Assembly (NCBI GenBank): GCA_003576915.1
Contig: QEVF01000003.1
Location: forward strand, 1-64,000
Source: Planctomycetota bacterium
Lineage (GTDB): Bacteria; Planctomycetota; UBA8742; UBA2392
DNA: 64,000 nucleotides
Direction: 5' to 3'
Shown: positions 26,199-49,697 of the stretch, in pieces
Layout of the letters: each line of letters starts with the position of its first letter
Position numbering within the stretch: the stretch's first letter is position 1
Translations under genes and position numbers: made by a program
The notes under the pieces: generated by a model
Databases searched by the model: none
Told to the model about the DNA's origin: nothing
What the model saw: the letters and a program-made list of their open reading frames with translations, nothing else

Positions 26199-26999
<801 letters not shown>

Positions 27000-39991: not shown

Positions 39992-40543
39992 CTACTTCTT
40001 GGCTTCGCCGGCGCCGGCCTTGGCGGCCGCCTTGGCGGCTGCTTCCGCCTTGGCTTTGGCCTTGGCCTCGCGCTTGGCGCGGGACGCCTGGGCCTGCTTC
40101 TCCTTCGCGGCGGCCTCTTCCTTGGCGACCTGCTCGGCTTCTTCGGCGGTCAGCTTCTTCACGCGCGACTCGTCCACCTTGCCAAGGTGCTCGGCGTTGA
40201 GCTTTTCCTCAACGCGCTGGGCCTTGCCGACGCGCTTGCGCAGGTAGAACAGCTTGGCGCGACGGACCTTGCCGGCGCGCTTGACCTCGATACTCACGAC
40301 GTTGGGGCTGTGCAGGGGGAAAGTGCGCTCGACGCCCTCGCCGTCCACGATGCGGCGCACGGCGAAGGTTTCGCGCAGGCCGCCACCGCGGCGGGACACA
40401 ACGATGCCGCTGAAGAGCTGCACGCGCTCTTTGTCGCCTTCCTTGATGCGCACGCCGACATCGACCGTGTCACCCACGTTGAACTGCGGCAGGCTGGTCT
40501 TCTTGATTTCCCGGGCTTCAAAAGGCTTGGCAAAGCTGCTCAT
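39992..40543 (-). CDS. rplS: Ribosomal protein L19 with long basic tail
   Basis: Residues 1-115 match L19 ([20 protein letters not shown], then [13 protein letters not shown]). A tail of about 65 residues follows, made almost only of Ala, Lys, Glu and Arg, bringing the length to 183 against about 115 normally. It follows trmD in the usual trmD-rplS pairing. Confidence 0.97.
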
Positions 40544-43166: not shown

Positions 43167-43652
43167 TCAGACGCGACGACGCTTCTTGGGCCGGCAGCCG
43201 TTGTGCGGCAGCGGCGTGACGTCCTCGACGCTCTTGACCTCGATGCCGCTGGACTGCAGGCCGCGGCAGGCCGAGTCACGGCCCGCGCCGGGACCCTGGA
43301 CGCGGCATTCCACTTCGCGCACGCCCATCTTCTTGGCCTTGTCGGCGACGTTTTCGCCGGCGCGCTGCGCGGCGAAGGGAGTGCCCTTGCGCGAGCCCTT
43401 GAACCCCATCGATCCGGCGCTGTCCCAGCACAGGGTGTCGCCGTTGAGGTCGGTGATGGTGATGATGGTGTTGTTGAAGGTGCTCTTGATGTGCGCAATG
43501 GCGCGGGGGACGTTGCGCTTGGCCTTCTTGACCTTGACCTTGGGCTCTTTGCCGCCCTCTTTCCCCGCGTCTTTGGCGCCGGCCGCTTCCTTGGCCGGAG
43601 CTTCCTTGACTGCTGCGGCAGCGGCCGCAGGCTTCTGTTCTTCCTTCGCCAT
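43167..43652 (-). CDS. rpsK: Ribosomal protein S11 with N-terminal Lys/Ala extension
   Basis: Residues about 45-161 match S11 ([40 protein letters not shown], end [12 protein letters not shown]). The first about 45 residues are Ala/Lys/Glu-rich, an extension not found in typical S11 (about 129 residues). Confidence 0.97.
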
Positions 43653-44827: not shown

Positions 44828-45667
44828 TTAAGTCGCTATTTTCGTCGGCGCTCCCCGCGGAACGCTCAAGATCCGGTGCCCGTCCTCGACCACCGCCACG
44901 TCGTGCTCAAAGTGGGCCGAGAGCGAGCCGTCCTGCGTCACGATGGTCCAGCCGTCGGCGTGGCGCTCGGTCAATTCCGTGCCGATGTTCACCATGGGCT
45001 CGATCGCCAGCACCATGCCCACCTCAAGCTTCAGGTCCAGATCGCGGGCGTTGCGGCCGCGCGGCACGTAATTGGGCACCTGCGGCGGTTCCCACAGGCT
45101 GGTGCCCAGCCCGTGCCCGACGAATTCCTTGACGCACCAAAGACCGTGCTGTCCCTCGACGAAATCCTGGATGGCGGCGCAGACCGTGCGCAGTTTGACG
45201 CCCGGCCTGACCAGGGCAATGGCGCGGCGAAGCGCCTCTTCCGTAACCCGGATCAGGCGCAGGGCCTCTTCGCTGACGCGGCCCACGGGCACGGTGATGG
45301 CGCAATCGCTGTACCAGCCGATGCCGCGGGAGTCGCGCACGATGACCCCGACGTCGCCTTTGAAGAGGTCGCCCTCCTTCAAGACGCGGTCGGAAGGCAG
45401 CCCGTGGACGATTTCGTGATTCACGGAAGCGCAGATCGTGCCCGGAAACTCGAAGGGCGCCCCCGCGGCCAGCACGCCCTGGAAGGCCGGAACGGCCCCC
45501 TGCTTGCGGATGTGCTGCTCGCAGGCACGATCAACCTCGGCGGTGGTGACGCCGGGCTTGACCATGTCGCGCATGATCTGGTGGCACTCGGCTGCAATGC
45601 GCCCCGCCTCCGCCATCACTTCGATCTCGGAGGGGGTCTTGAGCCTGATGCGATCGCCGCGCGACAT
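44828..45667 (-). CDS. map: Methionine aminopeptidase, type I
   Basis: This 279-residue enzyme removes N-terminal methionine. The five metal ligands are visible: Asp in FKGDVGV, Asp in WYSDCAI, His in FVGHGLG, Glu in AIEPMV, and Glu in HFEHDVAV. It follows adk with a 15-base gap, as in many S10-spc clusters. Confidence 0.97.
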   Translation of the reverse strand: MSRGDRIRLKTPSEIEVMAEAGRIAAECHQIMRDMVKPGVTTAEVDRACEQHIRKQGAVPAFQGVLAAGAPFEFPGTICASVNHEIVHGLPSDRVLKEGDLFKGDVGVIVRDSRGIGWYSDCAITVPVGRVSEEALRLIRVTEEALRRAIALVRPGVKLRTVCAAIQDFVEGQHGLWCVKEFVGHGLGTSLWEPPQVPNYVPRGRNARDLDLKLEVGMVLAIEPMVNIGTELTERHADGWTIVTQDGSLSAHFEHDVAVVEDGHRILSVPRGAPTKIAT

Positions 45668-45682
45668 GCCGATGTCCGTGTG

Positions 45683-46600
45683 CTAGAGCCTGGTGACCAC
45701 TGCGCTCATTACCGCAAAGATTTCATCCACGCCCTTCGTTGCGTCAATCTCCCGCAGAAGGCCCTGACTCCTGTAACGCTCGACCAGGGGGCCCGTATTC
45801 GCGGCATACTCCTCCAGCCGCTTGCTGACTTTGTCGGCCGCGTCGTCGGAACGCTGGTAGGTTTCGCCCCCGCAGAGGTCGCACTTGCCCTCGACCCTCG
45901 TGGGGTTGAACTTGACGTGAGAGATGGCGCCGCACTGGCGGCAGGTGCGGCGGCCGCTGATGCGCTCCACAATGACGGCATCGGGCGCCGCGAAGTAGAG
46001 GGCGGCGGCAATCTGCTCGCCGCGCCGCTGCAGCACCTTGCCCAGCTCGACATCCTGGCCCACCGTGCGGGGAAATCCGTCAAAGATGAAGCCCTGGCCG
46101 CAATCCCCCCGCTGCAGGCGGTCCTCCACGAGGCCCACGGTCACCTCGTCGGGAACGAGCTTGCCCGCGTTGACGAATTCCTTGGCCTTGAGCCCCAGGG
46201 GCGTCTCCCGTTTCATGTGGTCGCGGAAGAGGTCTCCCGTCGAGATGTGAGGCAGCTTCAGGGCCTGGGCGAGCTTTGCTGCCTGTGTGCCCTTGCCGAC
46301 GCCGGGAGGGCCGAGGAAGACCAGCACAAGTTTCTTCACGGCAGGCTCCCTTTGCGCAATCACGCGCGTGGCGGGGGGCAGCGTCTTCCGCGGCGCCGGC
46401 TTCAGCACCCGCTTGCCCTTGGTCGCGGCCTTGCGCGCGGGCTTCTTTGCTGCGCGCTTGGTCCGGGGCGGGGTCTTGCGCGCGATCTTGGCGGCCGCGC
46501 GCCGGGGTTTTGACTTCGCGGTGCGCGCCTTGGGCTGTGGGCGCTTGCGCTGTTTCCCTGCGGGTTTCCTGGCGCGCTTTGGCGCCTTCTTTTTTGCCAT
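45683..46600 (-). CDS. adk: Adenylate kinase with histone H1-like N-terminal extension and possible second start
   Basis: Residues 88-305 are a normal adenylate kinase: P-loop FLGPPGVGKGT, NMP site HISTGDLFR, FDGFPRT, and a zinc LID with CRQC and CDLC. The first 87 residues are Lys/Arg/Ala/Pro-rich (for example AKKPARKAATKGKR), like bacterial H1-type proteins. Two starts look usable. ATG 46600 has GAGGA ending 6 bases before it. GTG 46339 (codon 88) has AGGGAG ending 6 bases before it and would give a 218-residue enzyme of standard size. Both forms may be made. It follows secY, as usual. Confidence 0.95.
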   Translation of the reverse strand: MAKKKAPKRARKPAGKQRKRPQPKARTAKSKPRRAAAKIARKTPPRTKRAAKKPARKAATKGKRVLKPAPRKTLPPATRVIAQREPAVKKLVLVFLGPPGVGKGTQAAKLAQALKLPHISTGDLFRDHMKRETPLGLKAKEFVNAGKLVPDEVTVGLVEDRLQRGDCGQGFIFDGFPRTVGQDVELGKVLQRRGEQIAAALYFAAPDAVIVERISGRRTCRQCGAISHVKFNPTRVEGKCDLCGGETYQRSDDAADKVSKRLEEYAANTGPLVERYRSQGLLREIDATKGVDEIFAVMSAVVTRL

Positions 46601-46662
46601 GGCTGGTCCTCAATGAAAGCGGGCGCAGCATAGCCGCGCCCGCGAACGTCGGCATACGGAAA

Positions 46663-48087
46663 TCAGCGGCGGCGCTGGCCGACCATGCCCGTGTAGGCGT
46701 CGTAGTTGCGCTGGATGAGTTGAACCTCGATTTTCTGAATCAGGTCCAGGGCCACGTGGACGACGATCAGGATGCCGGTGCCGCCCATGAAGCGGAAGAA
46801 CATGCGGTTCTGGGAGAGGGACTCCGAGTCGCCAAAGACGAAGTGCATGGCCTCGGGAATCATGACGGGGACGACGGCGACAAGGCAGAGGAACGTGGCG
46901 CCTGCCAGAGTCATGCGCCGCAGAATCTGGCTCAGGTAAGTGACGGTATCCTTGCCGGGGCGGACGCCGGGAATGAAGGCGCCCCACTCCTTGAAGTTCT
47001 TGGCCAGCTCGATGGGGTTGAACTGGAGCTGAGTCCAGAAGTAAGTGAAGAAGAAGATGAGCACGATGTAGCCAAGGGTGTAGGTAAAGCCGCTCTGGTT
47101 CATCGCGTCCTTGGCGTCGGTCATCAGGTTGCCCCAGAAGCCGCCGCCCGCGCCCACCTGTTCAAGAAGACCGAACAAGACCAGAGGCAGGGTCATCAGT
47201 GCCGAAGCAAAGATAATGGGGATCACGCCGGCCTGGTCGATGCGCAAGGGGAAGGTCTGGCGCTGCCCGCCGGCCACCTTGCTGCCGCGCACATGCTTGG
47301 CGTGCTGGATGACGATCTCACGGCGCGCCAGTGTGATGATGACGACGCCGGCGGTGATGGCCGTGAACATGACCACGAGGGTGACGAGGCTGAGGAAGGC
47401 ATCGAGAGAAGCCTTGGGGTCCACCTTGCTGTCCAGCATGGGCTGCATGAGCGAAATGACGGCCTGGGGGATGGAGGCGATGATGCCCGCCTGGATCAGC
47501 AGGGACACGCCGTTTCCGATGCCCTTTTCCGTGATCTGGTCGCCCAGCCAGATCAGGAAGTAGCAGCCTGCCGTCATGGTGATCACGGCGATGACCTGGA
47601 ACAGCCACTCGGGCTCGATGATGATTGTGGCTGCCAGCTCCGGCTTGCTGGTGAGCAGGTTGATGGTGAAGATGGCCTGCAGGATGCAGATGGGGATGGT
47701 GGCGATGCGAGAATACATGCGGATGCGCCGCTGCCCGCTCTGTCCTTCCTTCTGGATTTCCTCCAGTTGAGGCACGACCTTGGTGAGCAACTGGAAGATG
47801 ATCTCCGCGCTGATGTAGGGCATGATGCCCAGCGAGAAGATGGTGAAGTCAAAGAGATTGCCGGCCGAAAGGGCGTTGTACACGCCCAGGAAACCGTACA
47901 CCCAGCTGCCCTGCTGCTGTTCGCGGAAGATCTGGGTAAACGCGACGGTGTCGATACCGGGAACCGGGATGTTGGACCCGAACCGGTACACGGCAAGGAT
48001 CAGAAGCGTAAACAGGGCCTTTTTGCGGAGTTCCGGAATCTTGAAAAGATTCGCGAACATCTCGCTTGGGCCGTGCACCTTATCCAT
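46663..48087 (-). CDS. secY: Protein translocase subunit SecY
   Basis: This 474-residue membrane protein has about ten helices. SecY signatures include GIMPYISAEIIFQLL, ITEKGIGNGVSLLIQAGI, and KNFKEWGAFIPGVRPG near the C-terminal loop. It forms the Sec channel with SecE and SecG. It lies between rplO and adk in the standard order. Confidence 0.98.
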   Translation of the reverse strand: MDKVHGPSEMFANLFKIPELRKKALFTLLILAVYRFGSNIPVPGIDTVAFTQIFREQQQGSWVYGFLGVYNALSAGNLFDFTIFSLGIMPYISAEIIFQLLTKVVPQLEEIQKEGQSGQRRIRMYSRIATIPICILQAIFTINLLTSKPELAATIIIEPEWLFQVIAVITMTAGCYFLIWLGDQITEKGIGNGVSLLIQAGIIASIPQAVISLMQPMLDSKVDPKASLDAFLSLVTLVVMFTAITAGVVIITLARREIVIQHAKHVRGSKVAGGQRQTFPLRIDQAGVIPIIFASALMTLPLVLFGLLEQVGAGGGFWGNLMTDAKDAMNQSGFTYTLGYIVLIFFFTYFWTQLQFNPIELAKNFKEWGAFIPGVRPGKDTVTYLSQILRRMTLAGATFLCLVAVVPVMIPEAMHFVFGDSESLSQNRMFFRFMGGTGILIVVHVALDLIQKIEVQLIQRNYDAYTGMVGQRRR

Positions 48088-48207: not shown

Positions 48208-48876
48208 TTACTTGGCCGGCTTGTCCTTCTTGGGCTTGTCTGCAGCGGGCTTTTCAGCTTTGGGCTTTTCCGATTTGGGCTTCTCGGCCTTGGCTTCGGC
48301 GGGCTTTTCGGCCTTGGGCTTCTCGGCCTTGGCTTCGGCGGGCTTTTCTGCCTTGGGTGTCTTGGCCGGAGCCGCCGGTTTGGCCGGTTTGGCCGGGGCC
48401 GGAACTTCGGCCTGAACCTCGCCCTTGAGGTTGATGCGCTCGGCCTTGCCGCCGGCCGCCGCGATCTTCTCGCGCGCCGAACCGCTGAAGCCCTGGGCGC
48501 GAACCGTCAGCTTCTTCTTCAACTCACCGTCTCCCAGCACCTTCACGCCGTCAAGCACGCGGTTGATCAGGCCGGCCTTGAGGAACTCCTCGGGGCCGAC
48601 GGTGGCGCCGTTCTCGAACACATCGAGCTGGCTGACGTTCAGCACCGCGTTGACCTTGCGGAAAATGGCGTTGTTGAAGCCGTGCTTGGGCAGACGGCGG
48701 ACCAGGGGCATCTGGCCGCCTTCAAAGTAGAAGCGCTGGGCAAAGCCCGTGCGCGCTGAAGCGCCCTTGCCGCCACGGCCGGCGGTCTTGCCCTTTTCAC
48801 TGCCGGGACCGCGACCCTTGCGCACCATGGGGCGCTTGCGCGTCCGGGGCAGGGCTTTGAGTTGAGTCAGGTTCAT
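48208..48876 (-). CDS. rplO: Ribosomal protein L15 with long C-terminal tail
   Basis: Residues 1-150 match L15 (GRGPGSEKGKTAGRGGKGA, then YFEGGQMPLVRRLPKHGF). A tail of about 70 residues follows, built from repeated Lys-Ala-Glu-Pro words (EKPAEAKAEKPKAEKP). The length is 222 against about 145. The L30 gene that usually precedes it is absent. Confidence 0.97.
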   Translation of the reverse strand: MNLTQLKALPRTRKRPMVRKGRGPGSEKGKTAGRGGKGASARTGFAQRFYFEGGQMPLVRRLPKHGFNNAIFRKVNAVLNVSQLDVFENGATVGPEEFLKAGLINRVLDGVKVLGDGELKKKLTVRAQGFSGSAREKIAAAGGKAERINLKGEVQAEVPAPAKPAKPAAPAKTPKAEKPAEAKAEKPKAEKPAEAKAEKPKSEKPKAEKPAADKPKKDKPAK

Positions 48877-48971: not shown

Positions 48972-49697
48972 TCAGGCCTTGGCCTCGCCCTCGGCGTCCT
49001 TCTTGTCCTCGGCCTTGGCTTCCGGCGCATCGGCCTTGGCCTCGGCATCGCCCTTCTTGCCGCGGGGGCCGCGGGTGCCGCCCCGGGGACCCTTGGCGTC
49101 GCGCTTGTCGCCGGAGCGGCCGTCGCGCTTGTCGCCCTTCTCGCGGCGGGCCTGGTCGCGCTTGAGTTCCTCGACCACCTCAAGCTTGGGACGATCACGG
49201 TCTGCCAGTACGGGCAGGCCGCGCAGCTTGAACACCTCTTCCTTGCTGCGCAGGTTGTTCAATCCGTCCAGCACGGCCTTGACCAGGTTCGTGGGATTGC
49301 GCGAACCGTAGGCCTTGGTCAGCAGGTTGCGGATGCCCAGGGCTTCGGCCACGCTGCGTACCGTCGCGCCGGCCTTGATGCCGGTACCGGGCGCCGCCGG
49401 GCGCAGGTAAACGCGGCTGGCGCCAAAGCGTCCCCACACGGCGTGGGGGATCGTGTCGCCGCGCAGCGGATAGCGCACAAGGTTCTTGCGGGCGTCGCGC
49501 ACGGCCTTTTCGATGCTGTTGGGCACTTCGCGGGCCTTGCCCTGCCCCAGCCCGAGAACGCCGCGCATGTCGCCCATGACGACCACGGCCGTGAAGCTGA
49601 AGCGGCGGCCACCCTTGGCCACCGCGGCCGTGCGCGTCACACCGATGACTTTCTCTTCGCCCAGATCGACGTCCCGGGCCAGTACTCGAGTTTTCAT
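48972..49697 (-). CDS. rpsE: Ribosomal protein S5 with charged C-terminal tail
   Basis: Residues about 10-170 match S5 (TRTAAVAKGGRRFSFTAVVV, QGKAREVPNSIEKAV, PGTGIKAGATVRSVAEALG). A tail of about 70 residues rich in Lys, Asp, Gly, Ala and Glu follows. It is directly followed by rplO with no rpmD between. Confidence 0.97.
   Translation of the reverse strand: MKTRVLARDVDLGEEKVIGVTRTAAVAKGGRRFSFTAVVVMGDMRGVLGLGQGKAREVPNSIEKAVRDARKNLVRYPLRGDTIPHAVWGRFGASRVYLRPAAPGTGIKAGATVRSVAEALGIRNLLTKAYGSRNPTNLVKAVLDGLNNLRSKEEVFKLRGLPVLADRDRPKLEVVEELKRDQARREKGDKRDGRSGDKRDAKGPRGGTRGPRGKKGDAEAKADAPEAKAEDKKDAEGEAKA

Follow-up and report, generated by a model that had tools for sequence, protein, structure and literature searches.

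The window, a stretch of 64,000 nucleotides from a Planctomycetota MAG that is ~87% complete, carries on its minus strand a gene for adenylate kinase (adk) flanked by secY and map (Table 1). The open frame runs from ATG 46600, which has GAGGA upstream at a spacing of 6 nt, to a TAG at 45685-45683, and its 305 residues divide into an arm of 87 and a core of 218; the core begins at codon 88, GTG 46339, which has AGGGAG upstream and likewise a spacing of 6 nt. Both starts are thus well formed, as the original prediction had described them, and its account of a Lys/Arg/Ala/Pro-rich arm of 87 residues joined to a complete adenylate kinase is borne out by the frame and by profile matches.

Pfam assigns the core to PF00406 (E 2.5e-49) and ADK_lid (E 6e-15). 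Against NCBIfam PRK00279 (NF001380) it scores 275.7 bits, a full-length match above the curated cut-off of 251, and against TIGR01351 235.3 bits (cut-off 168). Residues 93-303 cover the enzyme in full, as a long Zn-lid adenylate kinase with the P-loop GPPGVGKGTQ (GxPGxGKGT), the DGFPRT motif and the CxxC...CxxC of the lid; the whole core, the P-loop, the four-Cys lid and the single copy adjoining secY and map are all as in the known bacterial enzymes of this type (PRK00279/TIGR01351; 5g3y). The best solved relative is 5g3y itself (E 4e-73), and the solved adenylate kinases found differ in having no counterpart of the arm, their matches beginning at residue 84 or later. Given that the genome yielded no other adk match, the housekeeping role would fall to the armed form, and on its sequence it is probably a normal adenylate kinase, predicted to be active.

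Table 1. Features of the adk locus and of neighbouring genes with charged tails (window coordinates)
Feature	Position	Strand	Basis or remark
secY, upstream neighbour	46663..48087	-	PF00344, E 1e-96
GC-rich hairpin between secY stop and adk	46619..46643	-	every family member examined has a hairpin at this place, of varying sequence
adk ribosome-binding site CATTGAGGACCAGCC before ATG 46600	46601..46615	-	position and much of the sequence common with armless G014
adk with its arm, complete frame of 305 aa from the ATG	45683..46600	-	frame and profile matches
Polycationic arm, codons 1-87	46340..46600	-	composition, dN/dS against sister species, no Pfam match
Candidate internal start, AAAGGGAG - 6 nt - GTG at canonical adk core start	46337..46353	-	kept in G001; not in G003, G004, G015
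Core of adenylate kinase (218 aa with the GTG as first codon); four-Cys lid of the Zn type	45683..46339	-	profile and solved-sequence matches
map (methionine aminopeptidase, family M24), downstream neighbour	44828..45667	-	PF00557, E 1e-45
L15, charged low-complexity tail, C-terminal	48208-48876	-	
S5, charged low-complexity tail, C-terminal	48972-49697	-	
S11, charged low-complexity tail, N-terminal	43167-43652	-	
L19, charged low-complexity tail, C-terminal	39992-40543	-	

Composition of the arm and selection on its codons

The arm holds 20 Lys and 15 Arg (35 basic residues), 19 Ala, 13 Pro and a single acidic residue. Its codons were compared with those of the sister species G001 (JABARW010000030, a Planctomycetota MAG): in the arm 17 codons differ synonymously and 11 non-synonymously, with no indels (dN 0.074, dS 0.39); in the core these counts are 58 and 7 (dN 0.025, dS 0.50). 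The corresponding dN/dS is 0.05 for the core and ~0.19 for the arm, the latter a value from one species pair and to that extent a thin basis; together with the lack of indels, it argues that the arm is made as protein and that purifying selection acts on it, less strongly than on the core. By this comparison the only adk detected in the genome carries a polycationic arm that is real, translated protein and subject to selection.

Searches against Pfam matched the arms of g1 (the genus of the window and G001) and of a second armed genus, g2, to no family, even at E 10, and that of a third, g6, searched up to the same threshold, to one irrelevant domain only (NACHT helical domain, E 1.6). Searched against its own genome, the arm has itself as the only significant match. 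In a composition scan over 304 kb of the genome, adk and the L15 tail, which is of mixed charge, made up most of what was flagged, together with a few further frames; within those 304 kb, strongly basic arms are thus no general trait. We infer that the arm is probably disordered.

Low-complexity terminal tails rich in Lys, Ala, Glu and Pro also occur on ribosomal proteins encoded in the window (Table 1), and in part on those of relatives. An open frame from near 26999, on the minus strand, encodes 266 residues with (DPKK)n and proline/glycine-rich repeats.

Distribution of the arm and the ancestral start

N-terminal arms are found in three of the six genera of the family, in five genomes: the window's own (G000) and G001 in g1, G003 and G004 in g2, and G015 in g6. 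The genera g3, g4 and g5 and the outgroup G016 have none. Every one of the five is strongly polycationic with almost no acid, and those of G003, G004 and G015, of ~104-148 residues, stand on the same ancestral start. In shuffle tests the g2 and g6 arms are alike beyond composition and the g1 arms marginally or less clearly so, with the caution that repeats inflate such scores. In trees of secY, adk and map the key nodes have support of 53-61%, too little to fix the branching order of armed and armless genera; one gain with losses and several gains are both compatible with these trees. The type of lid, judged from the sequences, changes within this one family: the adk genes of g4 and of G005 in g3 (L013-L016) are of the short-lid type, lacking the Cys4 zinc lid, and other family members keep it.

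A family-model search of a 99-genome sample of the phylum gave no other N-terminal polycationic arm at the adk loci inspected, among them the strong adk matches with long open frames; where the open frame is short, the gene cannot hold an arm of this length. In other planctomycetes the long open frames that precede adk were read as other-frame or spacer sequence and hold no basic arm. Lys/Arg/Ala/Pro-rich tails of ~70-75 residues are nevertheless present at the C-terminus of otherwise complete adenylate kinases in two other Planctomycetota (L117 in G092, L118 in G105); given that these lie at the other end of the protein and in lineages different from the armed family, they presumably had a separate origin.

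The order of secY stop, hairpin and adk ATG is the same in all 15 of the 15 family genomes with adk, in an identical layout whether armed or armless, and many of them also retain a CATTGAGGA-like stretch in the secY-adk leader. The armless G014, from the same family, reads TTTCATTGAGGACAAGTC-ATGGCAAAGCAAGTTCTC, where the window reads CTTTCATTGAGGACCAGCC-ATGGCAAAAAAG-[arm]-GTGAAGAAACTTGTG. Since the leader before ATG 46600 is common to armed and armless relatives, the simplest reading of these sequences is that adk originally started at ATG 46600, with the arm inserted behind it, and that the GTG codon, though it falls on the first residue of the canonical core, is not an inherited start; an original start at the GTG, with the arm added upstream, was rejected for the same reason. 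The arm would have arisen as an insertion or low-complexity expansion directly after the ancestral start, in the order MAK, arm, KKLVLVFLGPPG.

Proposed function of the arm

We consider it fairly probable that the gene has one main armed product, made from ATG 46600, in which the arm adds a weak electrostatic affinity for polyanions and is under purifying selection in g1. Such an arm would bind loosely to ribosomes or RNA, to nucleoid DNA, or to polyphosphate, and would hold some of the enzyme's AMP/ADP/ATP balancing close to them. That the arm tethers the enzyme to DNA, RNA or ribosomes, as had been suggested for this gene, can reasonably be inferred from the charge; RNA or ribosomes, DNA and polyphosphate are not told apart as ligands by the sequence data. 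PPK1 is encoded in 14 of 16 family genomes, which makes polyphosphate a possible ligand, although it occurs in armed and armless members and does not track the arm.

The closest likeness lies in the KPAA-repeat tails of Pseudomonas AlgP and PhaF (histone H1-like), which are, as the arm is, Lys/Ala/Pro-rich low-complexity polycations on a folded domain. Repeat peptides from these KPAA-rich tails bind DNA; AlgP is found at polyphosphate granules, whose even spacing depends on it (PMC9239181). By analogy, polyanion binding is likely to be common to both, and the most likely picture of the arm is that of a disordered polycation with weak polyanion affinity; the AlgP and PhaF tails are, however, C-terminal and belong to granule- or nucleoid-associated proteins, whereas the window arm is N-terminal on a metabolic enzyme, is richer in Arg and, in g1, has no regular repeat. 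The tails of chlamydial Hc1/Hc2 and eukaryotic H1 resemble the arm in overall composition only. The label "H1-like" holds for composition, Lys/Ala/Pro-rich and nearly acid-free as in H1 and AlgP tails, but not for family membership, the arms having no Pfam match to any histone-like family.

A serious rival, less probable though a real possibility, is that the extension is effectively neutral: replication slippage in GC-rich Lys/Ala/Pro codons would have lengthened the N-terminus, and the arm would do nothing specific. The arm is patchy in its distribution and varies from 87 to ~148 residues across genera; three family genera do without it, so that it is dispensable over evolution, which counts against a specific function, and beyond composition the g1 arms resemble the g2 and g6 arms only marginally. 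With the charged tails of L15, S5, S11 and L19 nearby, the arm may also partly reflect a habit of the lineage rather than a specific function. Slippage alone fits poorly with a dN/dS of 0.19 and no indels at a dS of ~0.4, with the nearly acid-free polycationic character of all five arms, unlike the mixed-charge ribosomal tails, and with the recurrence of basic tails at the other end of adk in G092 and G105.

Should the arm bind ribosomes, DNA or polyphosphate, a simple electrostatic tag, with repeated gain or loss inside one family, would bring an essential and normally diffusible energy-balancing enzyme to where it is used; should it bind none of these, it would be a modest example of low-complexity tail evolution. 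The family offers a natural comparison of armed genomes (G000, G001, G003, G004, G015) with unarmed ones (G005 to G014).

The internal GTG codon

It had been proposed that the gene makes two products, the armed enzyme from ATG 46600 and a free enzyme of 218 residues from GTG 46339. In the window the Shine-Dalgarno duplex is stronger at the GTG (-7.6 kcal/mol) than at the ATG (-5.9), a strength reached by 3.0% of the internal, in-frame start codons surveyed (3,592, over 304 kb of the genome) and in that sense unusual but not rare. The corresponding codon of G001 is preceded as AAGGAG-6-GTG (Shine-Dalgarno -7.7; its ATG, -8.5), and the GTG and GGAG are kept in both g1 genomes while neighbouring codons have changed.

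Comparison with the other armed genera divides the proposal. Arm and internal start are both kept within g1; the GTG start is absent from the armed g2 and g6. G003 and G004 have Asp/Glu at the canonical core start and no well-placed start preceded by a Shine-Dalgarno sequence near the junction: the nearest candidate in G003, an ATG 24 codons before the P-loop (-5.6), has its SD-like bases too far upstream, and an ATG 16 codons before the P-loop has none. In G015, whose codon at the core start is no start codon either, the junction reads AAARKVLVFV, again with no well-placed SD-preceded start nearby. An internal start with a ribosome-binding site is accordingly confined to two of five armed genomes, both of one genus, and is not conserved among armed relatives; armed relatives without it, the observation named beforehand as speaking against the proposal, make up two of the three armed genera, and as a conserved feature the two-product idea is not supported by these sequences.

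A minor free enzyme from a g1-specific internal start is possible, and Salmonella has documented cases of paired start sites that yield N-terminal proteoforms (PMC11005335). Even limited to g1, we regard a functional dual start as unlikely: the codon's place at the canonical core start, its strong Shine-Dalgarno sequence and its persistence in G001 speak for it, and against it stand its absence from armed g2 and g6, its restriction to two closely related genomes, the ancestral status of ATG 46600 and the share of internal starts that are as strong. The AGGGAG of the window moreover pairs with P-loop codons in a local hairpin (MFE -32.4, z -2.4), which also counts against use of the GTG, though the same stretch in G001 folds no better than shuffles (z -0.1) and the pairing is not clear there. 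It is very improbable that in g1 one gene yields two forms of adenylate kinase, one tethered to polyanions and one free, and that this hairpin tunes the internal start; if the two-form reading were true, the cell would set the share of nucleotide balancing on ribosomes, nucleoid or polyphosphate. Least credible, and strongly disfavoured, is a start at GTG 46339 alone with the arm as an untranslated leader, which would give the standard 218-residue size from a good Shine-Dalgarno sequence but is contradicted by the codon-level selection on the arm (dN/dS), by the ancestral leader and start at ATG 46600, and by the armed relatives, among them those without an internal start.

The single armed product from ATG 46600 remains our preferred reading. 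The hairpin upstream of that start (spacers L003-L016 in the relatives), sometimes followed by a short T-rich stretch, may be a terminator, an attenuator or a processing site splitting adk from the spc operon.
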